DNA of 64,000 nucleotides. Origin: Plantactinospora endophytica. Its GTDB lineage: Bacteria > Actinomycetota > Actinomycetes > Mycobacteriales > Micromonosporaceae. Every line of letters starts with the position of its first letter. Positions within the stretch are counted from its first letter, which is position 1. Positions 5,540 to 19,391 of this stretch are shown one piece after another. Under the pieces are notes generated by a model. The model did not search any database. It was not told the DNA's origin and was given only the letters and a program-made list of their open reading frames with translations. The stretch lies in assembly GCF_016862915.1 (NCBI RefSeq), contig NZ_BONW01000016.1:310001-374000 (forward strand), in the 5' to 3' direction. The position numbers and the translations under genes are program-made.

Positions 5540-6988
5540 TCACACCTGGGTACGCGTCCACTGCTGGTTGGTGCCGCTGCCGCAGGCGTACTGGGCGATG
5601 TCGGTGCCGTCGGCGGTGCCGCCGCTGACCACGTCGAGACACTTGCCGCTGTGCCGGGCGCGCAACTGGAAGTAGCTGCCGGTGGCGACCCACTGCCACT
5701 GCTGGTTGGTCCCGCCGCCGCAGGTGTACTGGATGACGTTCGCGCTGTCGGCGGTCGACGCGGATGCCACGTCGAGACACTTGCCGCTGTTCTGGTTGAC
5801 GATCCGGACGTAGCCGCTGCCGGCGTCCTGGAACTCCCACTTCTGGTTCCCGCCGCCGTTCCAGGCGTACTGCTTGACCTCCGCGTTGTTCGCCGTGGAG
5901 TTGCCGACCACGTCCACGACCCTGCCACTGTGCCGGGCGGTGATCCGGTGGTAGGGCGGCGCCTGGCCGGTGATCGTGCCGGTGGCGGCGTCGATGGTGA
6001 TCGACGGGTACCAGTTCAGGCTCATGCTGGTGCTGGAGGGGAAGGTGATCGGCAGCCAGACGTACTGCGAGTCGTTGACGGGCCCGTTCCAGGCGCCGGC
6101 CCAGCGGTCGCCCAGGTAGAGGTAGCTGGTGGTGGAGCTGCCCTGGATCGGGAGTACGAACGTCGGCTGGGACCGGAACGTGGTCGAGTCGCCGACGTTG
6201 GTCCAGCCGGTCCAGGGTCCGGAGATGCTCGACGCGGTGGCGTACCTGGCCTGGTTGGGGTTCCATCCGGTCGCCGCCGAGGTGAGCAGGAAGTACGTGC
6301 TGCCCCGCTTGAACATCGCGGGCGCCTCCCGGTGGGCGTCGTTCCAGAAGTTGCCGACCAGGGTGGAGATGTTGAGGAAGTCCGCCGTGAGCCGGTAGAT
6401 GTGCAGGTCGTAGTTCTCGTCGGCGGCCGAGATCATGTACGCGGTGCCGTTGTCGTTGTAGAGCGTGATGTCCCGGGACATGTGCTGGCCGAGCGGCCGG
6501 AAGCTGCCGTGGTAGGTGTAGTTGCCGTCGACGGTGGCCGACGAGGCGACGGCGGCGCGGGCCTCGCCGTAGTCGGACCCGTTCTCCTTGTGCATCCACA
6601 TCACGTACCGGCCGGTGCTGGCGTTGTAGACGACCTTCGGCCGCTCGATGTTGGCGACCTGTAGCTCGGACGCGGACGACTGGGTGAGGACGTTGCCGCG
6701 GAACTCCCAGTCGCGCAGGTTGGTGGAGCGGTACACCGAGACCGCCCGGAACGTGTTGTCCGGGTTGCGGTTCTCGCCGAACCAGTAGTAGTGGTCGCCG
6801 ACCTTGAGCATGCCGCCGCCGTGGGCCTGGAGCAGGTTGCCGCTGGTGTCCCTGAACTGGGTGCCGTTGGTGATGGTGACCGGTGCCGCCTGAGCGGGCG
6901 TGCCCGTCCCGGCCACCGCCGTCATGGTCGCCGCTGCGGTGACGGCGAGCGACAGCCCGAGCGATAGGAACCGCCTGTTCCTGATCAC
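5540..6988 (-). CDS. Secreted GH43 (exo-beta-1,3-galactanase-like) with C-terminal ricin-type lectin domain
   Basis: The start is GTG at 6988, preceded by GAGGA, because it opens directly onto a signal peptide (VIRNRRFLSLGLSLAV... cleavage near AQAAP). The open frame continues upstream but codes for non-signal sequence. The mature protein begins with a five-bladed beta-propeller fold of the GH43_24 type (LLQAHGGGMLKVGDHYYWFGENR, ANIERPKVVYN, HREAPAMFKRGSTYFLLTS). This subfamily trims beta-1,3-galactan backbones of arabinogalactan. The last ~130 residues are a beta-trefoil CBM13/ricin B domain with three Q-x-W repeats (NQKWEF, NQQWQW, NQQWTR) and HSGKCLDV blocks. It acts outside the cell on plant polysaccharide. 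Monocistronic; the upstream motif of the sugar regulon at 10-19 kb is absent here. Subfamily assignment is from memory of motifs. Confidence 0.87.
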   Translation of the reverse strand: MIRNRRFLSLGLSLAVTAAATMTAVAGTGTPAQAAPVTITNGTQFRDTSGNLLQAHGGGMLKVGDHYYWFGENRNPDNTFRAVSVYRSTNLRDWEFRGNVLTQSSASELQVANIERPKVVYNASTGRYVMWMHKENGSDYGEARAAVASSATVDGNYTYHGSFRPLGQHMSRDITLYNDNGTAYMISAADENYDLHIYRLTADFLNISTLVGNFWNDAHREAPAMFKRGSTYFLLTSAATGWNPNQARYATASSISGPWTGWTNVGDSTTFRSQPTFVLPIQGSSTTSYLYLGDRWAGAWNGPVNDSQYVWLPITFPSSTSMSLNWYPSITIDAATGTITGQAPPYHRITARHSGRVVDVVGNSTANNAEVKQYAWNGGGNQKWEFQDAGSGYVRIVNQNSGKCLDVASASTADSANVIQYTCGGGTNQQWQWVATGSYFQLRARHSGKCLDVVSGGTADGTDIAQYACGSGTNQQWTRTQV

Positions 6989-7299
6989 CTTTCTGTCCTC
7001 TCTGTTCGGTCCTGCGCGATCGCGCGTGGGCGGACGGGCCCGCTGGTGCCGCCCTGGCGCACCGCCGACCCGGCTCTCGGGCGATGTCGCCGGCCTCCGG
7101 CAGGCCAACCCTCCGGACCGCAGGTGGTGGTGGTCCGGCACCATCTTGGTAGTCGAGGGTGCGGCGACGCGCCAGATCTCGAACAGATTCATACACGGAC
7201 ATCAATTAATGAACATCGGCGGTTGCGGCGGGCCGTGGCGCCGGTACTAGGATTCTCTGCCCGGTGCGGTGCGGCGGACGACCGCCGAGACCGGGGAGG
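6989..7299. other. Intergenic region upstream of the GH43 gene
   Basis: 311 bp with no convincing gene. It must hold the GH43 promoter. The only AT-rich patch, 7188-7216, contains a short imperfect inverted repeat (TTCAT ... ATGAA, 16 nt apart) that could be a regulator site; evidence is weak. The rest is plain GC-rich sequence. Confidence 0.4.
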
Positions 7300-7793: not shown

Positions 7794-8783
7794 TCAGTCC
7801 GGGAGTTGCGCGGCGAGCAGCTCCGCGTAACTCAGGTTGGCGTGCAGGGTGCGACCCGCGTTGTGCGGGGTGTGTACGACGTTGTGCCGGCCGAGCAGCG
7901 GGTCGTCGAGCGGCAGCGGCTCGACGTCGAAGACGTCGGCGGCGAGACTCAGCTCGTCGGCGAGTACCCGGCGGCGCAGTTCCGGCACGTCGCAGATGGT
8001 CGCGCGGGTGACCAGCACGACGAGGCAGCCCTTCGGCAGGGCCCGGACGTGCTCGGCGGTGACCAGCCCCTCGGTGCCGGAATTCAACGGCACCATCGGG
8101 GCGAAGATCTCCGCGTCGGCGAGCAGCCGCGTCAGGTGCCACTCCCGGCGCGCGCCGGACCGGTGGAACGACGGCTCGGTCGCGTACGGGTCCCAGGCGG
8201 CGACGTCCGCACCGAGCATGTGCGTCCAACTGGCGTACCGGCTGGCGATGTTGCCGGCGCCGACGATCCGGACCCGCTTGCCGGCGACCGTGCCGTGGCT
8301 GAACGCGGGATCGTCGCCGAACTGCCCGTACGCGTACTGCCAGGGCGAGTCGTCGGAGACGATGGCGGCGTGCTGCTGCGGGATCCGGCGCAGTCCGCAG
8401 ATCGTGAGGCCGAGGGCGTACTCCGCGACGGACTGTGCCCAGTATCCCTCGGACGGCTGCCGGAGCCGACGCACACCGTGCCGCCCGAGCCGCTCGTCGA
8501 GCTCCGCCGACGGCGGCCACGAGTCGGCGACGAACGCCTCGGCGAGCGCCGGCAGCCCGTCGAGGTCGGCGTCGGTCGGCTCGACCCCGAGCGAGAACAG
8601 CCGTTCGACGGTGTCCGGGTCGGCGCCGCCCGCGCCGACGGCCGCCGGCAGTGCTACGACCTCGGTGGTCGACAGCCGGGTGAACGAGACGTCGGTGCGG
8701 GGTCGGAGCAGCCGGTGCAGGTGGTCGGCCACGAACGGCCAGGACCGTTCGAAGTCGGGGTGCACCACGATCGCTGTCTTCAT
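7794..8783 (-). CDS. D-isomer-specific 2-hydroxyacid dehydrogenase family protein
   Basis: 329 residues. NAD-binding Rossmann motif in VRIVGAGNIASRYASW, and the expected catalytic residues of the family: Arg in LVTRATICD, Glu in DVFDVEPLPLDD, His in VVHTPHNAGRT. These enzymes interconvert 2-keto and 2-hydroxy acids with NAD(P)H. The start ATG overlaps the stop of the PmoA-like gene (ATGA, 8780-8783) and is preceded by GGAGAGG, so the two are translationally coupled. Third gene of the unit led by the Gfo/Idh gene (10760) and by the shared promoter motif at 10814-10850. Its likely job is a redox step on a sugar acid; the substrate is unknown. Confidence 0.85.
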   Translation of the reverse strand: MKTAIVVHPDFERSWPFVADHLHRLLRPRTDVSFTRLSTTEVVALPAAVGAGGADPDTVERLFSLGVEPTDADLDGLPALAEAFVADSWPPSAELDERLGRHGVRRLRQPSEGYWAQSVAEYALGLTICGLRRIPQQHAAIVSDDSPWQYAYGQFGDDPAFSHGTVAGKRVRIVGAGNIASRYASWTHMLGADVAAWDPYATEPSFHRSGARREWHLTRLLADAEIFAPMVPLNSGTEGLVTAEHVRALPKGCLVVLVTRATICDVPELRRRVLADELSLAADVFDVEPLPLDDPLLGRHNVVHTPHNAGRTLHANLSYAELLAAQLPD

Positions 8784-9643
8784 GCCGCCTCTCCGGGTAC
8801 CGCCGTCGTGAACGCCTGCCACGCCTGCTCGATCTCCGGCGTTCCGACCGGGGCGCCGAAGACCACGACGTTGTGGTGGAACCGCCGTTCCTGCCCGGCG
8901 GGGAGCTGCCAGGCGCCGCCGATGCTGGGACTCGGGCCGACCCCGAGTTCGTTGTCGATCCGCCACGGCACCGGATGGCGGAAGTTGCCGGGATGGTCCA
9001 TCACGACGACCAGCGGCGGATCGTCGTCCGGGCCGGCGTCGAGCAGCGGCATCCGCACCGCCACCCACCGCGCGGGCTGCTGCTCGGCCTCCGTACCGGC
9101 CTGCCCCTCGCTGTTGTACGCCGTGCCGCCGGACTCGGGCCGGTAGGGCATCCGCAGGAACAGCCCGCCGTACGGGTACCGACCGAACGTCAGGTCCCGG
9201 GCCGCCCGGAATCCGAGGGCGAGCCCGAGTTCGTAGCGGTCCCCGTGGTCGGTGAGCGTCCACGCCTGCGTCTCGTGCAGCAGCGGCTCACCGCCCGGGG
9301 CGCGCAGCTCGGTGCGTACCTCCCAGCTCGCCCGGTTGCCTTCGGTGGACGGCTCGCCGGCCAGCACCGGGTGGAACGTGCCGTCCCGCAGGTGCTTGGA
9401 ATGCAGACCCTCGTGCCAGAAACCGACACCGTTGACGTCGTTGAGGCCGACGGAGAGGCCGTGCTGCCACGGGTGGTGGTCCGGCGCGTCCTCGGTGACG
9501 GTGCCGACCCCGGTCGGCGAGACGATCGGATGGATGTAGGGCCGGGTGTGCGGTCGCGCCTGCTGGGTCAGGATGGGTGTGCCGGATCCGGCCCGGAACA
9601 CCCGGACCAGGCCCAGCTCCTCGTGCACGGTCAGGTCAGGCAT
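8780..9643 (-). CDS. PmoA-like protein (DUF6807)
   Basis: 287 residues. The blocks TRPYIHPIVSPTG, DHHPWQHGLSVG, NDVNGVGFWHEG and VVMDHPGNFRHPVPWRI are those of the family annotated as methane oxygenase PmoA-like, now DUF6807. It is unrelated to true particulate methane monooxygenase. Family members commonly sit beside Gfo/Idh oxidoreductases and ThuA-like proteins in glycoside-oxidation loci, as here. The His-rich motifs suggest a metal or sugar site (inference). Its ATG (GGAGG 9 nt upstream) lies 8 bp inside the end of the Gfo/Idh gene and its stop overlaps the next start, so all three genes are coupled. Confidence 0.8.
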   Translation of the reverse strand: MPDLTVHEELGLVRVFRAGSGTPILTQQARPHTRPYIHPIVSPTGVGTVTEDAPDHHPWQHGLSVGLNDVNGVGFWHEGLHSKHLRDGTFHPVLAGEPSTEGNRASWEVRTELRAPGGEPLLHETQAWTLTDHGDRYELGLALGFRAARDLTFGRYPYGGLFLRMPYRPESGGTAYNSEGQAGTEAEQQPARWVAVRMPLLDAGPDDDPPLVVVMDHPGNFRHPVPWRIDNELGVGPSPSIGGAWQLPAGQERRFHHNVVVFGAPVGTPEIEQAWQAFTTAVPGEAA

Positions 9644-10760
9644 CGACGGCCACCTCCGAACGGGAGAACAGGGGAAGCGTGATCTCCGCGCCGCCGCGCA
9701 GCGCCGACTCGTGCGCGCAGATGCCGGCGCTGGTCCAGTTCGCCGAGGCGTACACGTCGGGGAACGGCGCGCGGCCCTCGACGATGGCCGCCACGAACTC
9801 GTGGGCCAGGTGGGGGTGTGAACCACCGTGTCCGCTGCCCTGGGTGAATGACAGGTGCCGGTTCTCGTCCGCGTCGTACACGCCGCGCGTGGTGTATTCG
9901 CGGATTTCGGCGGGAAGTCGGTCGGCGTAATCGGGGATATCCACCCGCCGGCCGTCCTCGCCGGTGAACACGACGGGGCTGTCCCGTTCGAGCTGCTGCC
10001 ATTCGTACGCCATTTTGTCGCCGTACACGTCGAAGCTCTCGACGTATTCCCGAGCGACGTCGAACAGTGATCGGGTGACCTCGGCGGCGAGGTCGGAGTC
10101 GCGGAGGCGGAACAGGGCGGTCTCGACGGCGAACGGCGGCCCGCCGCGCGTGGCGGCGTGGTCGACGCGGCCGGAGCCGAGGCAGCGCACCGACTCCGCC
10201 TCCCGCTCGGCGAGGGCGAGCAGCGGCGCGACGGCGTGCGTGGCGTAGTGCATCGGGGGCAGGTCGAGCCAGTAGTCCGGCCAGCCGGCCATCTCCTGCA
10301 TGTGGGCGCCACGGAGGAACTGGATCCTCCCGAGTTGTCCGCTGTCGCGAAGGTCCTTGGCGTACAGGAACTCGCGGGTGTAGACAGCGGTCTCCATCAT
10401 CATGTAGGACTTGCAAGAGTCCTGCTGGGCCCGGACGATTCGCGCGCAGTCCGCCACCGAGGTCGCCATCGGTACGGTGCACGCGACGTGTTTTCCTGCG
10501 TTCAGTGCGGCAATAGAATGCTCGGCGTGCGCTGCGATTGGTGAATTTATGTGAACGGCATCGATATCCGGGTCCTCCAGCATCGATTCGACACTCGTGT
10601 GGCGGCCGGCGATCCCGAAATGGTCGGCGATCCGGTGCAGCGAGTCCTCGGTGCGCTGGCACACCGCGACGAGTTCGGCGTGCGGGTGAGCCTGGTAGAT
10701 CGGGATGAACTCGGCGCCGAAACCTAGCCCAATGATCCCGATCCGTACCTTCTGCCTCAT
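9636..10760 (-). CDS. Gfo/Idh/MocA family oxidoreductase
   Basis: 374 residues from ATG 10760 (AGAAAGG 8 nt upstream), 21 nt from the predicted transcription start. N-terminal Rossmann fold IGIIGLGFGAEFIPIY, then the C-terminal alpha/beta sheet domain with HLSFTQGSGHGGSHPHLAHEFVAAI. The usual EKP motif, whose Lys aids catalysis, is replaced by TVP in HVACTVPMATS, so chemistry or substrate may be atypical. The family oxidises or reduces sugar hydroxyls (such as C3 of glucosides, inositols) with NAD(P). First gene of a coupled trio and divergent from the XylR-like regulator. Likely under its control through the motif at 10814-10850. Confidence 0.87.
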   Translation of the reverse strand: MRQKVRIGIIGLGFGAEFIPIYQAHPHAELVAVCQRTEDSLHRIADHFGIAGRHTSVESMLEDPDIDAVHINSPIAAHAEHSIAALNAGKHVACTVPMATSVADCARIVRAQQDSCKSYMMMETAVYTREFLYAKDLRDSGQLGRIQFLRGAHMQEMAGWPDYWLDLPPMHYATHAVAPLLALAEREAESVRCLGSGRVDHAATRGGPPFAVETALFRLRDSDLAAEVTRSLFDVAREYVESFDVYGDKMAYEWQQLERDSPVVFTGEDGRRVDIPDYADRLPAEIREYTTRGVYDADENRHLSFTQGSGHGGSHPHLAHEFVAAIVEGRAPFPDVYASANWTSAGICAHESALRGGAEITLPLFSRSEVAVDA

Positions 10761-10787: not shown

Positions 10788-10850
10788 AAGGTACGGACGG
10801 CGGTTCGGAACCTCCATGAACTATCCCGCTGCAACCCTTAGAAATTCCCC
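10788..10850 (-). promoter_or_regulatory. Promoter with shared regulon motif, site E (Gfo/Idh operon)
   Basis: One of five copies of a ~37-bp motif. Plus-strand reading from 10814: CCATG, three variable bases, TATC, GCTGC, CCTTAG. 20 bp from its CCATG end, towards the gene, lies a -10-like hexamer TACCTT (minus strand, 10788-10793). The motif's inner end overlaps where a -35 box would be, as at class II activator promoters. Predicted transcript start is near 10781. The site lies between the Gfo/Idh operon and the divergent XylR-like gene, so it may also control the regulator. Confidence 0.6.
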
Positions 10851-10885
10851 CGTCGCGGCGGGCCCCTGAAAGCGAGCACAGACCC

Positions 10886-12079
10886 GTGGACACAGCGATC
10901 GCGCACACCGCCACCCCCGTCCGAAGCAGCGGCACCCGGCATGTGGCCCTGCTGGTCGAGACCTCCAACGCCTATGCCCGCGGCCTGCTCGTCGGGATCA
11001 GGAAATATCTGGTCAGCCACCCTGGCTGGTCGATCTACCTGGCCGAGCACTCCCGGCACGAAACCGACCTGTCGTGGCTCGACGGCTGGCGCGGGGACGG
11101 CGTCATCGCCCGGATCGAGAACCAGGAGACGGCAGAGCGGGTACGGCGACTGCGGGTGCCCGCCGTCGACCTCAGCGCCGCGTACCTCACGCCGGAACTG
11201 CCGTGCGTCGAGACCGACGACGCGACGATCGCCCGCTGGGCGACGGAGCACTTCGCGGAGCGGGGGCTGCGCAACTTCGCCTACTGCGGAGACGCCCGGT
11301 TCGGCTGGTCCGTCAAGCGCGGTGACCACTACGCGGCCGAGGTGCGGCGGCTGGGGCACGAGCCGCACGAGTTCCGGATGGAGCCGTCCGGGACACTGGC
11401 CGGCGATCGGCTCGCGCTGGCGAGCTGGCTGCTCGACCTGCCCAAGCCGGTCGGCGTCCTGACCTGCTACGACATCGCCGGGCAGGAGGTCCTCGAGGCG
11501 TGCAAGATCGCCGGGCTGGCGGTGCCGGACAGCGTCGCCGTGCTGGGCGTCGACAACGACGAGCTGATGTGCAACCTGACCACGCCGGCACTGTCGAGCA
11601 TCCAGCCCGACACCACCCGTACCGGCTTCCTCGCCGCGTCGCTGCTCGACCAGATGATGTCCGGCCAGGCCCTCGACCCCTGCCTGCACCTGATCCCGCC
11701 GCTGCGGGTGGAGACCCGGCAGTCCTCCGACATCCTCGCGGTCGCCGACCCGGTCGTCGCGCGGGCGTTGCAGCTCATCCGGGACCGGGTCGACGAGGGC
11801 ATCCCGGTTTCGGCGGTCCAGCGGCACGTCGGACTCTCCCGCCGCGCGCTGGACTACCGCTTCCTGCGGGTGCTGGGCCGCACCGTGCACGAGGAGATCA
11901 CCCGGGTACGCATGGAACGCCTGGCCGACCTGCTCATCCGCACCGACTGGACGCTGCCCCGGCTCGCCGAACGGCTCAACTTCAGCCACGCCGAGTACAT
12001 GGGCGTGGCGTTCAAGAAGTACAGCGGCAAGTCACCCGGCGAGTACCGCCGGGCCAACCGCTCCCCGCTGCCCGGCTGA
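10886..12079 (+). CDS. XylR-type transcriptional regulator (LacI-like sensor + AraC HTH)
   Basis: 397 residues from GTG 10886, close to the length of E. coli XylR. The N-terminal ~270 residues are a periplasmic-binding-protein-like sugar sensor (HVALLVETSNAYARGLLVGIRKY, CVETDDATIARWATEHFAERGLRNFAYCG, VAVLGVDNDELMCNLTTPALSSI). The C-terminal ~100 residues are an AraC double HTH (VSAVQRHVGLSRRALDYRFLRVLGRTVHEEI, LAERLNFSHAEYMGVAFKKYSGKSPGEYRR). XylR-class proteins are activators that bind beside the -35 region when sugar is bound. Divergent from the Gfo/Idh operon with site E between them. It is the obvious candidate to read the five shared promoter motifs. The ligand is probably a monosaccharide or derivative. 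Confidence 0.88.
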   Translation: MDTAIAHTATPVRSSGTRHVALLVETSNAYARGLLVGIRKYLVSHPGWSIYLAEHSRHETDLSWLDGWRGDGVIARIENQETAERVRRLRVPAVDLSAAYLTPELPCVETDDATIARWATEHFAERGLRNFAYCGDARFGWSVKRGDHYAAEVRRLGHEPHEFRMEPSGTLAGDRLALASWLLDLPKPVGVLTCYDIAGQEVLEACKIAGLAVPDSVAVLGVDNDELMCNLTTPALSSIQPDTTRTGFLAASLLDQMMSGQALDPCLHLIPPLRVETRQSSDILAVADPVVARALQLIRDRVDEGIPVSAVQRHVGLSRRALDYRFLRVLGRTVHEEITRVRMERLADLLIRTDWTLPRLAERLNFSHAEYMGVAFKKYSGKSPGEYRRANRSPLPG

Positions 12080-12160
12080 CCTGCGGGCATCGGGAAGCGG
12101 TTGGACATCGCCTCGCGGTCTGTCGACCTCGGGCCGGTGCCGGGACGCCGTCGTCCGGGA

Positions 12161-12242
12161 CCTGGCGGCGGTGCCGCTCACCGCGCTTGAGGCGCCGGGA
12201 CACCTGCGGCGGTGCCGCTCACCGCTTGAGGAGCCGGGACAC
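12161..12242. repeat. Tandem duplication of the epimerase gene 3' end
   Basis: About 40 bp carrying the last codons and stop of the minus-strand epimerase gene (12203-12242) is repeated immediately downstream (12161-12203) with two 2-3 base differences. Only the copy proximal to the gene is used. The outer copy is a relic of replication slippage. Confidence 0.8.
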
Positions 12243-13013
12243 CCGAGGCAGGACGTCGGCCGGTTCGCCGCTGAGCCCGCATTCCATCGCGAGCCAGCCG
12301 TCGTACCCGATCTCCTCCAGCGCGGTCAGCGTCTCGTCCCAGTCGTAGTGGCCCGCCCCCGGTTCGAGCCGGTTGCTGTCACCGAGCTGGACGTGCGCGA
12401 TCCGCTGACCCGCCGCGCGGATGGCCGCACCGATGTCGGCCTCCTCGATCGACATGTGGAAGGTGTCGGCGATTACCCGTACCGCCGGCGACGCGACATC
12501 GTCGACCACCCGCGACGCCTGCTCCAGGGTGTTGACCAGGTAGTCCTCGAAGCGGTTCAGGGGTTCGAGGAACACGGCGGTGCCGTGCTCCTCGCCGACG
12601 GCGGCCACCTCGCGCAGCGCCGCCACGAGCAGCCGCCGGGACTCGTCGTCGTCCCGGGGCGCGGCGAACGGAGGGAGCCGCTTCGAGAAGACGCCGAACG
12701 AGTTGGGGGAGACGATCCCGGCCGCCCCGGCGTGCGGCAGGGTCCGCAGCAGTTCGCCGAGTTCGGAGATCCCCTGCTGCCTGCGCTCGGCGTCGAAGTC
12801 GCCGAGGAACGGGACCTGGGCGACCACGGCGCTCGGCATCACCACCCCGTTGGCGCGAGCCCGCCGCAGCTCGTCCGCCCGGGCCGCGAACACGCCGTCA
12901 CCCCGGCCGGACAGCTCGATGCCGTCGAAGCCCACCGAGAGCGCGAAGGCGAACTTCTCTTCCAGGGTGTCGCCGTCGAGCATCCGCTCCTGGGCGGCCA
13001 GTCGGAACGTCAT
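12219..13013 (-). CDS. Sugar phosphate isomerase/epimerase (AP-endonuclease 2-type TIM barrel)
   Basis: 264 residues from ATG 13013 (GGAG 8 nt upstream). Metal-ligand positions of the xylose-isomerase-like TIM barrel can be read in order: Glu in FLEPLNRFED, Asp/His in IADTFHMSIEEAD, His in HVQLGDSNR, Glu in LAMECGLSG. Members epimerise ketoses, cleave or isomerise keto-sugars, or act on inositol intermediates. Follows the permease pair with a 114-bp gap on the same strand and has no copy of the regulon motif of its own. It is therefore probably read from the promoter at 15045-15108. Confidence 0.85.
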   Translation of the reverse strand: MTFRLAAQERMLDGDTLEEKFAFALSVGFDGIELSGRGDGVFAARADELRRARANGVVMPSAVVAQVPFLGDFDAERRQQGISELGELLRTLPHAGAAGIVSPNSFGVFSKRLPPFAAPRDDDESRRLLVAALREVAAVGEEHGTAVFLEPLNRFEDYLVNTLEQASRVVDDVASPAVRVIADTFHMSIEEADIGAAIRAAGQRIAHVQLGDSNRLEPGAGHYDWDETLTALEEIGYDGWLAMECGLSGEPADVLPRVSRLLKR

Positions 13014-13127
13014 AGCTCGGTCTCCGGTCGGTCGTTGGTGTGCATGATGTCCTTTCCGGCGCCTGCGCGCCGATCTAGTGCCGTGCAACGGTGTCCACGA
13101 CCGAGCTCCGCCGGCCGTGGGCGCTGG

Positions 13128-14009
13128 TCATCCCTTGCTGCCGCTCGCGGCGAGGCCCGCGATGAAGCGGCGCTGCATGAGCAGGAAGAGGACGATGAGC
13201 GGGAGCACGATGATCACGCCCGCCGCGTTGACCAGGTTGTACAACTGGCTGTAGCCCTGGCTGAACTGGAAGAACGAGGTCGCCACCGGCATCTTCTCCA
13301 CGTCGATGAGGAAGGTGACCGCGAACAGCAGTTCCGAGTACGCGCCGAGCCCCGAGACCAGACCGACGGTCATGAAGCCGGGCCAGCTCAGCGGCAGGAT
13401 GACCCGGGTCGCCACCTGCCACTCGTTCGCGCCGTCGAGCCGGGCCGCCTCGTCGAGTTCCTTCGGGATGCCGACCAGGAACGTGCGGAGCAGCAGCACC
13501 GAGAACGGGGTGTTCAGCGCGACGTAGATGACGACGAGCCCGACGAGCGTGTTGATCAGACCGAGCTTCACCCAGAGGAAGAACAGCGGGACGATGAACA
13601 TCTGCACGGGCAGCGAGATGACGACGAAGAGGTAGGTCTCGATCTTCCGTTTGCCCGGCAGGTTGAGCCTCGCCAGCGAGTACGCCGCGGCCCCGGCCAC
13701 CAGCCAGGTGCCGAGGATCGTCCCGGCGACGAGGAACGCGGTGTTGGCGAAGCCGCGGGCCATGTTGCCCCGCCTCCACGCCGCCGCGAAGTTGGAGAGG
13801 TCGAGGGTGGCGGGCAGACCGAGCGGGTTGGCGCCGATCTCGAGGCTCGACTTGAACGAGTTGAAGACGAGCACCAGCACCGGAAGGATCGCGAACAGAC
13901 CGAGGACGACGAGCACCGAGTACGAGACCGGCGTGCGGCCGAGACCGCCCGGCGGCCGGTTCACGGGTCGTTCACGTCGACGATCGCGGACGGTCGCCAG
14001 GATCGACAT
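13128..14009 (-). CDS. Carbohydrate ABC transporter permease (MalG type)
   Basis: 293 residues with six hydrophobic segments and the inner-membrane permease EAA loop (ELDEAARLDGANEWQVATRVILPL) that docks the ATPase. A twin-domain partner follows the MalF/MalG pattern. The start codon overlaps the stop of the upstream permease (TGATG) behind a strong GAGGAGGAGG site, so translation is coupled. No ATPase gene is in the window. Actinomycete sugar importers of this class normally share a global MsiK-type ATPase encoded elsewhere. Confidence 0.92.
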   Translation of the reverse strand: MSILATVRDRRRERPVNRPPGGLGRTPVSYSVLVVLGLFAILPVLVLVFNSFKSSLEIGANPLGLPATLDLSNFAAAWRRGNMARGFANTAFLVAGTILGTWLVAGAAAYSLARLNLPGKRKIETYLFVVISLPVQMFIVPLFFLWVKLGLINTLVGLVVIYVALNTPFSVLLLRTFLVGIPKELDEAARLDGANEWQVATRVILPLSWPGFMTVGLVSGLGAYSELLFAVTFLIDVEKMPVATSFFQFSQGYSQLYNLVNAAGVIIVLPLIVLFLLMQRRFIAGLAASGSKG

Positions 14010-14959
14010 CAGACCTCCTCCTCACGACGACGCAGGAAGCCGAACAGGACCAGGAAGATCGCGCTCAGCACGGAGAGCGCGAGCGCGATGGCCGAGCCGT
14101 AACCGGCGTCCCGCGCGAGGAAGGCGGTGCGGTTGACCATGAGCGAGGCGACGTCGGTGGCGCCCGCCGGCCCGCCACCGGTGAGGATGAACGGGTAGTC
14201 GTAGACGAGCAGGCTGCCGATCGCGACGATGGTCAGCGCGAAGGTCAACGTCGGCCGGATGCCCGGCAACACGATGTGCCAGAACTCCTGCCAGGCGTTC
14301 GCGCCGTCGATGCGCGCGGCCTCGTACTGGCCCGCGTCGATTCCCTGCATCGCCGCGAGGAAGAGCACGACGAGGAAACCCCAGAAGTGCCAGTTGTCGA
14401 CGAACGCGACGCTGTAGAGCGCGAATCTCCCGTCGGCGAAGAAGTAGACCTCGTCGAGCCAGTGGATGCCGACGTCGTTCAACGCCGAGGCGAGACCGAA
14501 CTCGGGGTCGAGGATGTTCCGCCAGATCTGCGCGGTGATCACGCTGACCAGCAGGTACGGGATGAAGTAGAGCACCCGGAAGAGCGCGGCTCCGCGCCGG
14601 ATCCGGGAGAGCATGAACGCACCGACCAGACCCATCGCCATCGGTACGGTCAGGAAGATCAGCAGGTAGACGAAGTTGTTGCCGATGGCGTTCCAGAACG
14701 CTTCGTCGCCGACCAGCCGTCTCCAGTTCTCCAGTCCGACGAACTCCGGCGTGGTGATGCCGTTCCAGTCGGTGAACGAGTACCCGATGCTGCTGACCGT
14801 CGGCCCGCCGATCACCAGAAGGTTGAGGGCGAGCGCCGGCAGTACGAATGCGATGGCGACGAGACGAGAATTCCTGCGGCGTCGAACACGACGACGGGGC
14901 GGCACCCGTGCCTCCCGTGCGCCCTGTTCCGCCGGCGCCGATGTGGGTGCTGCGGTCAT
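14009..14959 (-). CDS. Carbohydrate ABC transporter permease (MalF type)
   Basis: 316 residues from ATG 14959. Basic N-terminal tail (PPRRRVRRRRN), six membrane segments and EAA loop (QYEAARIDGANAWQEFWHIVLPG). Pairs with the following MalG-type subunit. A longer in-frame reading to 15232 exists. However, it would run through the hairpin at 15177-15225 and lie upstream of the predicted transcription start near 15038, so the shorter start is preferred. No clear Shine-Dalgarno is visible before 14959. Confidence 0.9.
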   Translation of the reverse strand: MTAAPTSAPAEQGAREARVPPRRRVRRRRNSRLVAIAFVLPALALNLLVIGGPTVSSIGYSFTDWNGITTPEFVGLENWRRLVGDEAFWNAIGNNFVYLLIFLTVPMAMGLVGAFMLSRIRRGAALFRVLYFIPYLLVSVITAQIWRNILDPEFGLASALNDVGIHWLDEVYFFADGRFALYSVAFVDNWHFWGFLVVLFLAAMQGIDAGQYEAARIDGANAWQEFWHIVLPGIRPTLTFALTIVAIGSLLVYDYPFILTGGGPAGATDVASLMVNRTAFLARDAGYGSAIALALSVLSAIFLVLFGFLRRREEEV

Positions 14960-15044
14960 CGGGCTGCGCAGCGATTGGCTCGAATGGTCATCTGGACTCC
15001 GTGGTCGTCTTTCCGGGTCCGCGGCCTTCGCCGTGGCAGTCGTC

Positions 15045-15108
15045 ACGTTATGTCTGGACCCGGGGGTGGGGCCATGCGGTATCTTCTCTGCTTCCTGAGT
15101 TTTCTTAC
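15045..15108 (-). promoter_or_regulatory. Promoter with shared regulon motif, site A (permease-epimerase unit)
   Basis: Motif copy at 15072-15108: plus strand CCATGCGGTATC, then CTTCCTGAG, then TTTCTTAC. A 21-bp gap separates it from the -10-like TAACGT (minus strand, 15045-15050). Predicted start is ~79 nt before the permease ATG. It gives the permeases their own promoter behind the hairpin that follows the binding-protein gene. Confidence 0.6.
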
Positions 15109-15176
15109 ACCCAGGCGAAATCGGCGGTACCGCTGGGAGAATTGGGGTTGCGGAGCTTCCTGTAAAGAACAACGCC

Positions 15177-15225
15177 GGGGCCGGCCGACCGGGAACGAGA
15201 TCGTCCTTCCCGGTCGGCCGGCCCC
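15177..15225 (-). terminator. Strong hairpin between binding-protein and permease genes
   Basis: A perfect 19-bp stem (15177-15195 and 15207-15225, 11-nt loop) starts 20 bp after the binding-protein stop codon. In sugar ABC operons such a hairpin ends or attenuates transcription and stabilises the binding-protein mRNA, so the binding protein is made in excess of the membrane subunits. Confidence 0.75.
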
Positions 15226-15245
15226 GACCCACCCACCCCGGCGGG

Positions 15246-16658
15246 CTACCTCGCCGCCGTCTCGAAAGCCGGCGGAATGAGACCCTCGTCGTGATCCTTC
15301 TTGAAGGCCTTGTTGACGTTTTCGAGGAAGTCCCGGGCGGAGAGGTCGCCGGTGAGCAGCCGATCCTCGTTTTCCAGCAGATAACTCTCCGCCGCAGCGC
15401 CGAACGACACCCACGTCACGTACCCCACCTGCTTCTTCAGGGATGCGTCGCTGATGGCGGTGTACTGCGAGAGGAACCGCGGGTCGATGCCCTCCGGCGC
15501 CCCGGAGGCGTCGAACTTCACCGGTAGGGGCAGGTCGCCGACCTCCTTGATCGCCTGCCACCGCGCCTCGGTGTCGGAGAACTTCCACTTCAGGTATGCC
15601 TTCGCGGCGGGGAGGTTCTTGCTCGCCGCGTTGACCGCCATGGCGTCACCGATCGCGAGCGGGAAGACGTTGCCGGGCACTCCGGGCGCGAGGGACGGCA
15701 GCGGAGCCCAGTCCCATTCGTTCCCGCTCTCCTTGAAGTACTCGTTCATCCCGCCGATTTCCCAGCTTCCGGAGAGGAACATGCCGGTACTGCCGTTGGC
15801 GAGCTTGGCCATCTTCTGCGTGTCAGGCGTCGAGAAGTACTGCTTGACGCCGCCGTTGAAGTAGCCCTTCCGGAAGTAGTCGACCATCATCTCGACCGAG
15901 TCAACGAACGCCTGGTCGGTGAACGGGATCTTGCCGTTCAGGGCATCGTTGATCTTACCGGGGCCCGCGACCATGTTGAGGAAGCACGAGAGTACGTGTT
16001 CGGTGGCGCCCACGTAGTCCGCGTTGGCGTTCGCGAACGGTGTGATCCCGGCCGCCGTCATCTTCGCGATGACGTCCTCGAGCATGGCCCGGTCGGTCGG
16101 CACCTGCCACCCCTTCTTCTCGAAGAGGGTCTTGTTGTAGAAGAGCACCATGGTTTCGTAGCTCACCGGCATCACGACGAGTTTGTCGTTGACGACCCCG
16201 ATGTCCATCGCCCAGGGGAAGATCTTCTCCTTCCAGTTCTCCTGCTCGGCGACGCCGCCGAGGTCGGCGAGGTAGCCGGCCTCGGCGAACGGGATGGCGA
16301 CCGACGAGTTCAGCGGGATGATGTCCGGGCCCTGGCCGGCGGCGAGCGCCGTCTGGACCTTCGCGGTGAGGCCCTCGTTGTTCTGCGGGCTGAGCTTGAA
16401 CTCGACGTTCGGGTACTGCTTCTGGAACGGCTCGATGTAAAGCCGCTTGTACTCGGCCATCGTGGCGTCGTCGACGGTGTCCAGACCGACCCACATGTTG
16501 AGGGTGCCGCCGATCTCGCCGGGGGGCACGTTCTCCTCGACGTCGGCTGCCGTGCAGCCGGCGAGCAGCACCGGTACGGCGGTGAGCGCCGCGACCGCGC
16601 TCGTCCAGTGCGTCCGGCGGTGCGGTCTATGTGCGCTGCGGTGAAACAGATTGATCAT
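15246..16658 (-). CDS. Extracellular sugar-binding lipoprotein of ABC transporter (family 1 SBP)
   Basis: 470 residues. Signal peptide with lipobox VLLAGC; Cys35 is the predicted lipidated residue. The mature part is a typical family 1 solute-binding protein (GGTLNMWVGLDTVDD, VEFKLSPQNNEGLTAKVQTALAAGQGPDIIPL, GSTGMFLSGSWEIGG, FPLAIGDAMAVNAAS). It captures an oligosaccharide or related solute outside the membrane and passes it to the two permeases downstream. ATG 16658 is preferred to TTG 16712 because the latter lies upstream of the predicted transcription start near 16707. Confidence 0.92.
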   Translation of the reverse strand: MINLFHRSAHRPHRRTHWTSAVAALTAVPVLLAGCTAADVEENVPPGEIGGTLNMWVGLDTVDDATMAEYKRLYIEPFQKQYPNVEFKLSPQNNEGLTAKVQTALAAGQGPDIIPLNSSVAIPFAEAGYLADLGGVAEQENWKEKIFPWAMDIGVVNDKLVVMPVSYETMVLFYNKTLFEKKGWQVPTDRAMLEDVIAKMTAAGITPFANANADYVGATEHVLSCFLNMVAGPGKINDALNGKIPFTDQAFVDSVEMMVDYFRKGYFNGGVKQYFSTPDTQKMAKLANGSTGMFLSGSWEIGGMNEYFKESGNEWDWAPLPSLAPGVPGNVFPLAIGDAMAVNAASKNLPAAKAYLKWKFSDTEARWQAIKEVGDLPLPVKFDASGAPEGIDPRFLSQYTAISDASLKKQVGYVTWVSFGAAAESYLLENEDRLLTGDLSARDFLENVNKAFKKDHDEGLIPPAFETAAR

Positions 16659-16713
16659 CCTGACTCCGCTGTATTCGCTGTATGCCGCCGCGGACGGGTG
16701 CGGCGATTCCAAA

Positions 16714-16776
16714 AAGCTAGGTCGCCCGACCTGCGGGAACCATGCGATATCGTGCTGCTCTCCTGATGTTTCTTAC
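16714..16776 (-). promoter_or_regulatory. Promoter with shared regulon motif, site B (binding-protein gene)
   Basis: Motif copy at 16740-16776: plus strand CCATGCGATATC, GCTGCTCTCCTGA, then TTTCTTAC. 20 bp on is the -10-like TAGCTT (minus strand, 16714-16719). The leader to the ATG would be ~49 nt. This copy and site A are the most similar pair. Confidence 0.65.
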
Positions 16777-16819
16777 GTTCGCTCGCGGTCGGGAATTCCG
16801 GCGAGGCGTCCGGCGAGGT

Positions 16820-17860
16820 TCAGGGATTCGCCTGGAGCACGACCTGGAGGACATCCTGCGACGCCCCGTCGAGCAGTTCGAACGCCTCGGCCGCGCGTTC
16901 CAGCGGAAACGTGTGACTGATGAGATCGGTTACCCGCAGGGCGCCCGAGGCGGCGAGGGAGATCGCCGTGCTGTCCAGTCGGAAACGATTCCAGCGGTGC
17001 TGCAACGCGGGCGCCACCCCGGAGATCTGGGTCGAGACGACCTGGACCCGGTTGTGGTGGAACTCCTCGCCCAGGCGGAGCCCCACGCCGTCGCCCTGCA
17101 TGAACCCGGCCGCGCAGACCCGGGAGCTGTAGGCCACGGACCGGATGGCCTCGTGCAGCGCCGCGTAGTTGCCGGTCACCTCGAGGCACACGTCCGCACC
17201 CCGGCCGTCGGTGCGGGCCCGGATCTGCTCGGCGATCTCACCGTCCGCAGGATCGAGCGCCTCCGCCGCGCCGAGCTTGAGGGCCAGCTCACGACGGGAG
17301 GCGACACCGTCGACCGCGATCACCCGCCCGCCGTTGAGTCGGGCGAGTTGGGCGACCAACTGACCGGGTACCCCGAGCCCGAACACGGCGACGGTCTCCC
17401 CGACGTGGATGTCGGCGTCGAGTACGACGTTGAGCGCGATGCCGCCGATCTGCGAGAACATCCCGACCCGCGGGTCCACCTCCGGGGCCAGTACGCGGTC
17501 GCGGGCGTACTCGGCGGTGACGACCGTGCCGCTCCGGTGCCCCCAGGTGCCCCAGATGCGGTCACCGACCGACACCGTGTCGACGCCACCGCCGATCTCG
17601 ACGACCTCGCCGACCTCCTCGTAGCCCCAGCCGAGCAGGGGATACTCCCGGGAGGCGGTGCCGTCGACGAACAGCCGACGGTCGTTGTCCCACCGCTTCG
17701 ACAGGTAGGGGTTGGTCCCTCGGTAGGCAGTCAGTTCCGTACCCGCCGAGATGCCGGAGAACAGCGTTCGCAGCCGTACGTCCTGCTCGGTCAGCGGCCG
17801 CGCCGGCTCGTCCACCACCTCGGCCGCTCGCGGACCCGTGAAGCTCACCACTCTGGGCAT
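16820..17860 (-). CDS. MDR-superfamily dehydrogenase lacking the usual zinc ligands
   Basis: 346 residues. Medium-chain dehydrogenase fold with Rossmann motif VAVFGLGVPGQLVAQLARLNGG. The canonical catalytic zinc ligands are changed: the GICGTD cysteine is Ser in FSGISAGTEL, and the GHE motif reads GYEEVGEV. The four-Cys structural zinc loop is missing. This matches the threonine-dehydrogenase-like/BchC-like subgroup rather than classical alcohol dehydrogenases. ATG 17860 has GGGAGGGTGAC directly before it. Own promoter with motif site C. Lies between the ThuA-like gene and the binding-protein gene, all on one strand, so probably oxidises a sugar or polyol taken up by the importer. Confidence 0.85.
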   Translation of the reverse strand: MPRVVSFTGPRAAEVVDEPARPLTEQDVRLRTLFSGISAGTELTAYRGTNPYLSKRWDNDRRLFVDGTASREYPLLGWGYEEVGEVVEIGGGVDTVSVGDRIWGTWGHRSGTVVTAEYARDRVLAPEVDPRVGMFSQIGGIALNVVLDADIHVGETVAVFGLGVPGQLVAQLARLNGGRVIAVDGVASRRELALKLGAAEALDPADGEIAEQIRARTDGRGADVCLEVTGNYAALHEAIRSVAYSSRVCAAGFMQGDGVGLRLGEEFHHNRVQVVSTQISGVAPALQHRWNRFRLDSTAISLAASGALRVTDLISHTFPLERAAEAFELLDGASQDVLQVVLQANP

Positions 17861-17925
17861 GTCACCCTCCCTATGGGCGTCGGATGATCGCGCGTACCCG
17901 ACGATTGAAAATCGATCTCGATTCG

Positions 17926-17988
17926 AGGCTAGTAACGCGTCCGCCCGGCAACCATGCGTCGTTTCGCACGGCTCCGGAGATATTTCGA
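17926..17988 (-). promoter_or_regulatory. Promoter with shared regulon motif, site C (MDR dehydrogenase)
   Basis: Motif copy at 17952-17988: plus strand CCATGCG, CGCACGGCTCCGGAG, then ATTTC. 20 bp on is the -10-like TAGCCT (minus strand, 17926-17931). Predicted leader is ~59 nt. Confidence 0.6.
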
Positions 17989-18285
17989 CAAGGCGAATTC
18001 CCCGGCGGAATCCCGGCGGGAAATGGTCTCGACGCGGCGCGAGCAGTTCCCAGGAGGCGTAGAGCTGTCGGGTCAGCGGGACGACAGCGCGAACTCGGCC
18101 GTCGGATGCCCGGCCGGCATCAGGCGAACAGGTTTCGGCAGCCGCCGCAGAACGCTCGGCCGGGAGGTCCCGGATCGAGCGCTTCCGGAACCGGAAAGGT
18201 ACCGATCGAACACGCCCGGCAGCGGTGCGTCCCGGTCGGGCGCTTCCTGTATCGGAGTGTTCGGGCTCCGCGAACGTCGCGGCGG
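17989..18285. other. Intergenic region between ThuA-like gene and MDR promoter
   Basis: Together with site C this is a 425-bp gap. Beyond the motif I see no open frame with actinomycete codon bias and no strong hairpin. A weak stem (GTTCG ... CGAAC near 18258) lies just after the ThuA-like stop and may help termination. Confidence 0.4.
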
Positions 18286-19020
18286 TCAGTCGTGCCAGTC
18301 GGCGCGCGGCGTCTTGACCGCGCGGGCCGGGGCCACCACCGGGGCGCCGGGCATCGCCCAGCGGACGGCGTTGGCGAGGACCCGCTGGATCTGCGGATGA
18401 CGGTAGACCGGGTACGCCTCGTCGCCGGGACTGAAGTAGAAGACGCGGCCCCGGCCGCGCCGGAACGTCACGCCGGACCGGAACACCTCGCCGCCGGCGA
18501 AGGAGCTGATGAAGACGACCTCGTCGGGGCTCGGGATGTCGAACGGCTCGCCGTACATCTCCTGCTCGCCGATGACGATGGGCTGGTCCACCCCGGCCGC
18601 GATCGGGTGGCTCGGATCGGTCGTCCAGACGAGTTCACGCTCGCCCTCGTTGCGCCAGGCGAGCGAGCAGGTCGTACCCATGAGCTTCCGGAAGACCTTC
18701 GAGTAGTGTCCGGAGTGGAGCACGAGCAGGCCCATCCCGCCCAGCACACGGGCCGCGATCCGGTCGACCAGCCCGTCCTCGACCTGCTCGTGCGCCCGGT
18801 GCCCCCACCAGAGCAGCACCTCGGTCCGATCGAGCAGCTCGGGGGGAAGTCCCTGGTGCGGCTCGTCCAACGTTCCGGTCCGGACCTCGGCGTCCGGCAG
18901 GGCCGAGCGGAGCGCGTCGGCGATCGCGCCGTGGATGCCGTCCGGATAGATTTCGGCCATCTCCGGCTTGGCGCGCTCGTGGAGACCTTCGTTCCACACT
19001 GTGACCTGCACGGCGATCAT
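18286..19020 (-). CDS. ThuA-like domain protein
   Basis: 244 residues. Glutamine-amidotransferase-like fold of the trehalose-utilisation ThuA family (VQVTVWNEGLHE, EVLLWWGHRAHEQV, GMGLLVLHSGHYSKVFRKLMG, REGER-like and VFYFSPGDEAYPVYRHPQIQRVLANAVRWA). ThuA works with ThuB, a Gfo/Idh oxidoreductase, in the 3-keto-glycoside route of disaccharide use. The Gfo/Idh, PmoA-like and ThuA set here suggests a similar oxidative route. ATG 19020 abuts GAAGG. GTG 19011, three codons in, has better spacing and may be the true start. Own promoter with motif site D. Confidence 0.83.
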   Translation of the reverse strand: MIAVQVTVWNEGLHERAKPEMAEIYPDGIHGAIADALRSALPDAEVRTGTLDEPHQGLPPELLDRTEVLLWWGHRAHEQVEDGLVDRIAARVLGGMGLLVLHSGHYSKVFRKLMGTTCSLAWRNEGERELVWTTDPSHPIAAGVDQPIVIGEQEMYGEPFDIPSPDEVVFISSFAGGEVFRSGVTFRRGRGRVFYFSPGDEAYPVYRHPQIQRVLANAVRWAMPGAPVVAPARAVKTPRADWHD

Positions 19021-19131
19021 CCTTCGGGGAGACGAGCCCGCCGGCCGACCTGGACCGGCGAGCCGGCGGAGCTGACCCGGCGATCGGGGTCGCAGCCGTA
19101 CGGGAGGCATGGGCGACAGCTTCGCGGTCTG

Positions 19132-19193
19132 ACGCTACCGTCCGGCCGGGCGGGGACCATGCGCTTTTCCGCACGACTCCTGTGGTTTATCCC
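19132..19193 (-). promoter_or_regulatory. Promoter with shared regulon motif, site D (ThuA-like gene)
   Basis: Motif copy at 19157-19193: plus strand CCATGCGCTTTTCCGC, ACTCCTG, then GGTTTAT. 19 bp on is the -10-like TAGCGT (minus strand, 19132-19137). Leader is ~105 nt. The remaining ~200 bp up to the kinase start at 19392 shows nothing else I can support, apart from the kinase Shine-Dalgarno GAGGGGGG. Confidence 0.55.
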
Positions 19194-19391
19194 CGCCGGG
19201 GTGTCGGATCCAGGTCAGAGCCTCGGCTGCGGGTGCTACGGATCGGCACCCGCCCTCCGGAACCAGGGGCGGGCCTCGCGGACGGTACGGCGCGTCCTTC
19301 CGACAGTGCGTCGGTGTTCGTGCGTGCGGCTCGTCCGGCTATCGTCTCCCTACCGCTGGCGGGGGGCGCCGTGGCGAGGGGGGATTTCGAT

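Follow-up and report, generated by a model that had tools for sequence, protein, structure and literature searches.

A predicted XylR-type regulon with a direct-repeat operator in Plantactinospora endophytica and other actinobacteria

The stretch of Plantactinospora endophytica DNA analysed here (64,000 nucleotides of contig NZ_BONW01000016.1, positions 310,001 to 374,000; hereafter the window) harbours five transcription units preceded by a common motif of 37-39 bp, all five copies lying on one strand, and a divergent gene for a XylR-type regulator. The locus raises the question of which protein reads this motif, and whether its binding turns the genes behind it on or off. The motif is very probably the operator of the neighbouring XylR-type protein, which is predicted to activate the catabolic units and to repress xylR itself. 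A preliminary description of the window had named the protein encoded at 10886 as the natural reader, and this proposal was strengthened by the distribution of the motif, which tracks xylR over genomes and adjoins it in 7 of 7 genomes possessing the regulator.

Distribution of the motif and of xylR

The window XylR contains the domains PBP1_XylR (residues 20-107), Peripla_BP_3 (120-281) and HTH_18 (313-389), that is, a PBP1_XylR/Peripla_BP part followed by an AraC-type helix-turn-helix within one protein, as expected of the XylR type. It aligns to Escherichia coli XylR (4fe7) with E=5.5e-49, and is similar to it over residues 19-392 in having a LacI-like sensor fused to an AraC helix-turn-helix. 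Orthologs of xylR (E<=1e-60) were present in 5 of 354 Micromonosporaceae genomes, namely the window genome, Phytohabitans flavus, Asanoa iriomotensis, and the genomes G313 and G122. A contig scan added two further actinobacteria, Phytoactinopolyspora endophytica and a Microbacterium metagenome-assembled genome, which we take to belong to orders other than that of the window genome. The DNA-binding part of the six other orthologs is 64-94% identical to that of the window XylR. In a phylum sample of 396 genomes, no xylR ortholog was found besides that of the window genome.

The five sites described in the preliminary account hold in position and in orientation, on the strand of the downstream genes, as do the columns reported as invariant (plus strand CCATG, T in column 11, CC in columns 23-24, and T in column 32). 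A hand recount from site edge to start codon (10760, 14959, 16658, 17860, and 19020) gave 53, 112, 81, 91, and 136 bp, essentially equal to the 54-137 bp reported. In a leave-one-out test with 39-bp matrices over both strands of the whole window, each left-out site scored above every other position (5 of 5). The left-out sites 10814 to 19157 reached 14.7, 17.3, 26.3, 17.9, and 30.1 bits, against best background scores of 13.3, 7.5, 9.3, 12.7, and 10.8 bits. On window data alone the margin of site 10814 is therefore thin, while those of the other four are clear.

For the search beyond the window we used model R1, built from sequence alone on an alignment of 16 sites: the five window sites and eleven first found with the five-site window matrix. 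The preliminary description had named random occurrence genome-wide as an outcome that would speak against the motif. R1 gave exactly five matches at E<=10 in the 9.68 Mb (90 contigs) of the window genome, all of them the window sites (150 of 1011 first-look candidates were scored). Two or three sites with E<0.01 were found in each of the four xylR-bearing relatives, one in Phytoactinopolyspora and two in Microbacterium, the sites of the latter two genomes lying beside xylR or just past its end. This gives 17 sites over seven xylR genomes, with the motif beside xylR in all seven. Among the 354 family genomes, R1 matches at E<0.01 occurred only in the five with xylR; the 349 genomes without xylR yielded a single match, in G253 (E=0.064). 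This is in agreement with the conservation at orthologous promoters that the preliminary description had expected of genomes with the regulator. Six congeners without xylR likewise gave a single match, in G337 (E=0.27). The matches in G253 (within a frame of at least 564 aa), in G337 (within a 389-aa frame), and on contig 135 of G122 (E=1.2, within a 347-aa frame) lie inside genes or frames and were taken as chance. Permease orthologs at E<=1e-90 were found in 4 of the 354 genomes, all of them xylR-bearing, so that at this threshold there is none without xylR to compare.

Two tests are free of the circularity of R1. The six other xylR genomes contain 12 sites, of which model R2, built from the five window sites alone, recovered nine (E 1.5e-4 to 0.31); in the six congeners without xylR it had no match at E<=10. 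Besides, R1 found an extra site at position 4764647 of P. flavus that is in no model. TACGTT stands 21 bp past it, ahead of a Gfo/Idh gene whose product is 46% identical to the window Gfo/Idh. This site lies about 870 kb from xylR, and its reader would therefore act in trans.

More distant XylR relatives (four aligned) are 29-34% identical to the window protein in the sensor and DNA-binding parts. At eight loci with distant xylR genes (Planctomycetota, Sedimentisphaerales, Bacteroidales), matches of the window matrix were scattered and none stood out beside the gene; the best scores were 12-21 bits per locus, the loci's own motifs being unsought. The xylR cluster has a patchy spread, with its five family genomes (of 354) in five different genera, in addition to Phytoactinopolyspora and Microbacterium. 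This spread over genera and orders suggests horizontal transfer.

Anatomy of the predicted operator and promoter geometry

The majority consensus of the operator in the direction of transcription is nTGTAAnAAATCTCAGGAnCCCnGCGGGATAnCGCATGG. Self-similarity of the motif peaks at an offset of 21 bp (z 3.4, familywise p 0.003; offsets 8-30), as expected of AraC-family operators with direct-repeat half-sites about 21 bp apart. Information is concentrated in columns 3-18 (17.6 bits) and 24-39 (18.5 bits), separated by a 5-bp spacer with 2.0 bits, which points to two half-sites with a spacer between them. The predicted operator is thus a direct repeat of two 16-bp half-sites 21 bp, or two helical turns, apart.

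This architecture is similar to that of known systems in layout, operator sequences aside. E. coli XylR also has two adjacent sites per promoter. With an E. coli site of 18 bp, a pair spaced by 3 bp would repeat every 21 bp, as the motif does here. According to the excerpt of PMC7567609, 3 bp separate the two XylR sites of xylF. AraC-family rhamnose regulators, known from RegPrecise-type reconstructions, likewise have direct repeats with 21-bp periodicity, as given in the excerpt of PMC3870299.

In class II activation by AraC-type proteins (AraC at pBAD, RhaS), the promoter-proximal half-site reaches the -35 position, and the distance to the -10 is about 19-20 bp. Similarly, 16 of the 17 sites have a TAnnnT that starts 19-21 bp past the motif, and no site has one at any other offset from 0 to 53; the chance of TAnnnT at this gap is 0.0019 for one site. 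At all five window sites the -10-like hexamers of the preliminary description were confirmed in this form. In Streptomyces avermitilis, the mapped -10 elements have the consensus TANNNT, according to the excerpt of PMC8780764. With this fixed gap, the last bases of the motif reach the -35 position, and the class II activator layout suggested earlier fits these 16 sites, the proximal half-site being the one that would reach -35.

The transcript starts implied by the -10 hexamers favour the start of Gfo/Idh at 10760 rather than 10817, and that of the permease at 14959 rather than 15232; the preliminary description had stated that the transcript starts settle two doubtful start codons. Most ortholog alignments start at the proposed codons or close to them. 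In five of the six other genomes the Gfo/Idh alignment runs from residue 1 onwards, and in the sixth from residue 4. The permease alignments of P. flavus and G313 likewise run from residue 1, and those of Asanoa and Microbacterium start at residues 49 and 33.

Seven of the 17 sites, one per genome, adjoin xylR and are divergent from it. Column 14 is A in all seven and C in the ten others, a split expected once in 19,448 label shufflings if relatedness is ignored. The A of column 14 gives a -10-like hexamer on the opposite strand, at the same offset in all seven genomes: TAGATT in four, and TAGAAA (window), TAGATA (G122), and TAGGTT in one each. An in-frame ATG of xylR lies 6 nt past the hexamer in G122, Phytoactinopolyspora, and Microbacterium, in a leaderless-like arrangement, and in the other four genomes a GTG or ATG lies 26-56 nt past it. 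We infer that this hexamer is the -10 of xylR, and that occupancy of an operator in which it is embedded would repress xylR, so that autorepression is predicted. Column 14 may set the role of a site, a proposal to which we give an even chance: C would allow outward activation only, and A would also supply the xylR -10, such that one dimer activates the operon and silences xylR.

Proposed activation by XylR and its alternatives

In the proposed mechanism, a XylR dimer with its inducer, which may be a sugar-like compound taken up by the cell or an early product of its breakdown, would bind both half-sites head to tail and touch RNA polymerase at the -35 position. This would switch on the dehydrogenase operon together with the genes for the transporter and the accessory enzymes. 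At the xylR-facing site, where the distal half is proposed to carry the xylR -10 on the other strand, the same binding would repress xylR.

Several points weigh against this interpretation. R1 includes 16 of the 17 sites that it recovers, and the scan of the 354 genomes (E<=0.1) used stricter filters that lose weak matches. R2 missed 3 of the 12 sites (the gfo site of G122, the Phytoactinopolyspora site, and the binding-protein site of Microbacterium), and six of its nine matches are weak, with E between 0.01 and 0.31. Because the sites and genomes are related, the counts do not represent independent events. With regard to the anatomy, an offset of 10 bp was the runner-up in self-similarity (p 0.036, uncorrected), and an inverted repeat, rejected as weaker than the 21-bp direct repeat, still reached p 0.03 over centres. 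The thuA site of P. flavus has AATGAT in place of TAnnnT, and the opposite-strand hexamers of the window and of G122 fall short of the full TAnnnT. Finally, it is the promoter geometry that speaks for activation over repression, and the excerpt of PMC7567609 enters E. coli XylR with a repressor role at araC.

This last entry, together with the LacI-like sensor half and the contact of the operator with the -35 position, would be in line with a XylR that binds the same sites but represses the five units and releases them on inducer, in the manner of LacI. Nonetheless, this is unlikely, since repression does not depend on a constant spacing, whereas 16 of 17 sites keep their gap to the -10 within 3 bp. 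The site is also always upstream of the -10, the DNA-binding half of the protein is of the AraC type, and the excerpt of PMC7567609 gives E. coli XylR an activator role at xylA and xylF. It is still less probable that a regulator encoded elsewhere reads the motif and that xylR is a mere neighbour. The remote P. flavus site does require a reader working in trans; however, motif and xylR coincide over the 354 family genomes, bar the one weak in-gene match, and again in the two further actinobacteria, the 21-bp direct repeat has the layout of AraC-type operators, and one site adjoins xylR in each of the seven genomes. The copy number, five in the window genome against one to three in the six relatives, implies that copies were multiplied or lost, as a mobile or spreading repeat would do. 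That the motif is such a repeat, or a mere chance likeness, and plays no part in regulation is nevertheless hardly credible, given that the 9.68 Mb genome has only five copies, all of them at a fixed spacing upstream of the -10 of a linked gene, and that the motif stands at orthologous promoters in seven genomes.

Gene content of the predicted regulon and its meaning

The features of the locus are collected in Table 1. Ortholog identities were computed for ten window proteins, which do not include the kinase or the products of two flanking genes. Gfo/Idh (63-92% identical) is the sole target gene found in all seven genomes. In the window genome, P. flavus, G313, and Microbacterium, the genes for DUF6807 and the hydroxyacid dehydrogenase come next to it, as they do in Asanoa when a longer joined stretch is considered. 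The five site-bearing units of the preliminary description stand for the window, and do not extend to P. flavus and Asanoa, where a single site precedes the thuA-mdr-sbp-permease-permease-epimerase series that has four sites in the window, and where mdr, sbp, and permease lack a site of their own. Nine hand-set gaps (thu-mdr, mdr-sbp, sbp-perm1, and perm1-perm2 in both P. flavus and Asanoa, and sbp-perm1 in G313) held no remnants of extra operators, with best scores of -8 to -33 bits against 32-55 bits for the 16 aligned sites.

Table 1. Coordinates of predicted operators, promoter elements, and genes in the window
Feature	Position	Strand	Basis
XylR-type regulator, 397 aa, LacI-like sensor and AraC helix-turn-helix	10886..12079	+	domain search, structure match
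Operator (predicted) before the Gfo/Idh-DUF6807-dehydrogenase operon, divergent from xylR	10814..10852	-	site adjoins xylR in 7/7 genomes
Half-sites (predicted) of operator 10814..10852	proximal 10814-10829, distal 10835-10850	-	motif anatomy
Operator (predicted) of permease-permease-epimerase unit	15072..15110	-	motif match
Operator (predicted) of solute-binding protein gene	16740..16778	-	motif match
Operator (predicted) of MDR-family dehydrogenase gene	17952..17990	-	motif match
Operator (predicted) of ThuA-like gene	19157..19195	-	motif match
-10 hexamer TACCTT, gap 20 bp from operator 10814	10788..10793	-	-10 scan
-10 hexamer TAACGT, gap 21 bp from operator 15072	15045..15050	-	-10 scan
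-10 hexamer TAGCTT, gap 20 bp from operator 16740	16714..16719	-	-10 scan
-10 hexamer TAGCCT, gap 20 bp from operator 17952	17926..17931	-	-10 scan
-10 hexamer TAGCGT, gap 19 bp from operator 19157	19132..19137	-	-10 scan
Opposite-strand hexamer TAGAAA in distal half-site, proposed xylR -10	10839..10844	+	seven-genome alignment
Gfo/Idh/MocA dehydrogenase, start ATG 10758-10760	9636..10760	-	domains, ortholog alignment
DUF6807 (PmoA-like) protein, second gene of operon	8780..9643	-	domains, ortholog alignment
2-hydroxyacid dehydrogenase-like protein, third gene, 5' end provisional	7794..8741	-	domains, ortholog alignment
ABC sugar permease 1 (BPD_transp_1)	14009..14959	-	domains, ortholog alignment
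ABC sugar permease 2 (BPD_transp_1)	13128..14009	-	domains, ortholog alignment
AP_endonuc_2 family sugar epimerase/isomerase	12219..13013	-	domains, ortholog alignment
ABC solute-binding protein (SBP_bac_1)	15246..16658	-	domains, structure search, ortholog alignment
MDR (zinc-type) dehydrogenase	16820..17860	-	domains, ortholog alignment
ThuA-like protein, start ATG 19018-19020	18286..19020	-	domains, ortholog alignment

Five genomes (the window genome, P. flavus, G313, Asanoa, and Microbacterium) have a sugar-type transporter near xylR. In G122, a permease and a binding protein of the Liv (branched-chain-amino-acid) type come after the xylR-facing site, and in Phytoactinopolyspora the Liv-type transporter genes lie behind Gfo/Idh on the same strand. 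These Liv-type genes (Peripla_BP_6, BPD_transp_2; L031:12152-15718 and L011:4889-8574) replace the sugar-type transporter behind the operator. With five transporters of one type and two of the other, the preliminary term sugar regulon is plausible from the gene families and yet insecure.

Unlike E. coli XylR, the window XylR and its orthologs have as predicted targets Gfo/Idh, DUF6807, hydroxyacid dehydrogenase, MDR, and ThuA proteins and sugar- or Liv-type transporters. Xylose isomerase, xylulokinase, and a xylose transporter were not identified among the cluster proteins scanned, the rest of the genome being unsearched, and the target genes, as judged from their families, do not appear to point to xylose. 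The best scores of the AP_endonuc_2 protein are those against psicose and ketogluconate epimerases, and they do not reach the respective cut-offs. Solved structures were also considered as a guide to the substrate, and the matches of Gfo/Idh and of the binding protein were scattered over many sugars and gave no decision.

Some neighbouring genes deserve mention. The xylR-adjacent Gfo/Idh of P. flavus aligns in two pieces in different frames (L025:15763-16883), due to a frame break or a sequencing error. Near the extra site of P. flavus, a PfkB kinase and a second sugar-type transporter, convergent with Gfo/Idh, were found (L049:7882-11888). This transporter is 35-52% identical to that of the window, and the R1 genome scan gave no operator before it or before the kinase. 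G313 also possesses a second transporter set (L027:3165-6238), 34-50% identical, about 5 kb from the first and without a site. Past the cluster end, the window encodes a GH43-type glycosidase with ricin-type lectin domains (5540-7192) and no motif upstream; relatives of this enzyme were not found near xylR in P. flavus, G313, and Asanoa, and G122 gave matches to the lectin part only.

No literature description of this gene combination was found in the searches made, and among the papers listed by a broader search, judged from titles and abstract openings, none names the regulon. The predicted regulon is new, with a regulator and a type of switch that are already familiar. It provides a testable set of sites, transcript starts, and reader for genes known by broad family, such as Gfo/Idh, DUF6807, and ThuA. 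The same operator and dehydrogenase occur with two unrelated transporter types, and together with the single-base difference in column 14 this offers a compact case of local regulon rewiring between genomes. The inducer of the window XylR would give a lead to the compound degraded by a catabolic pathway that is as yet unassigned.

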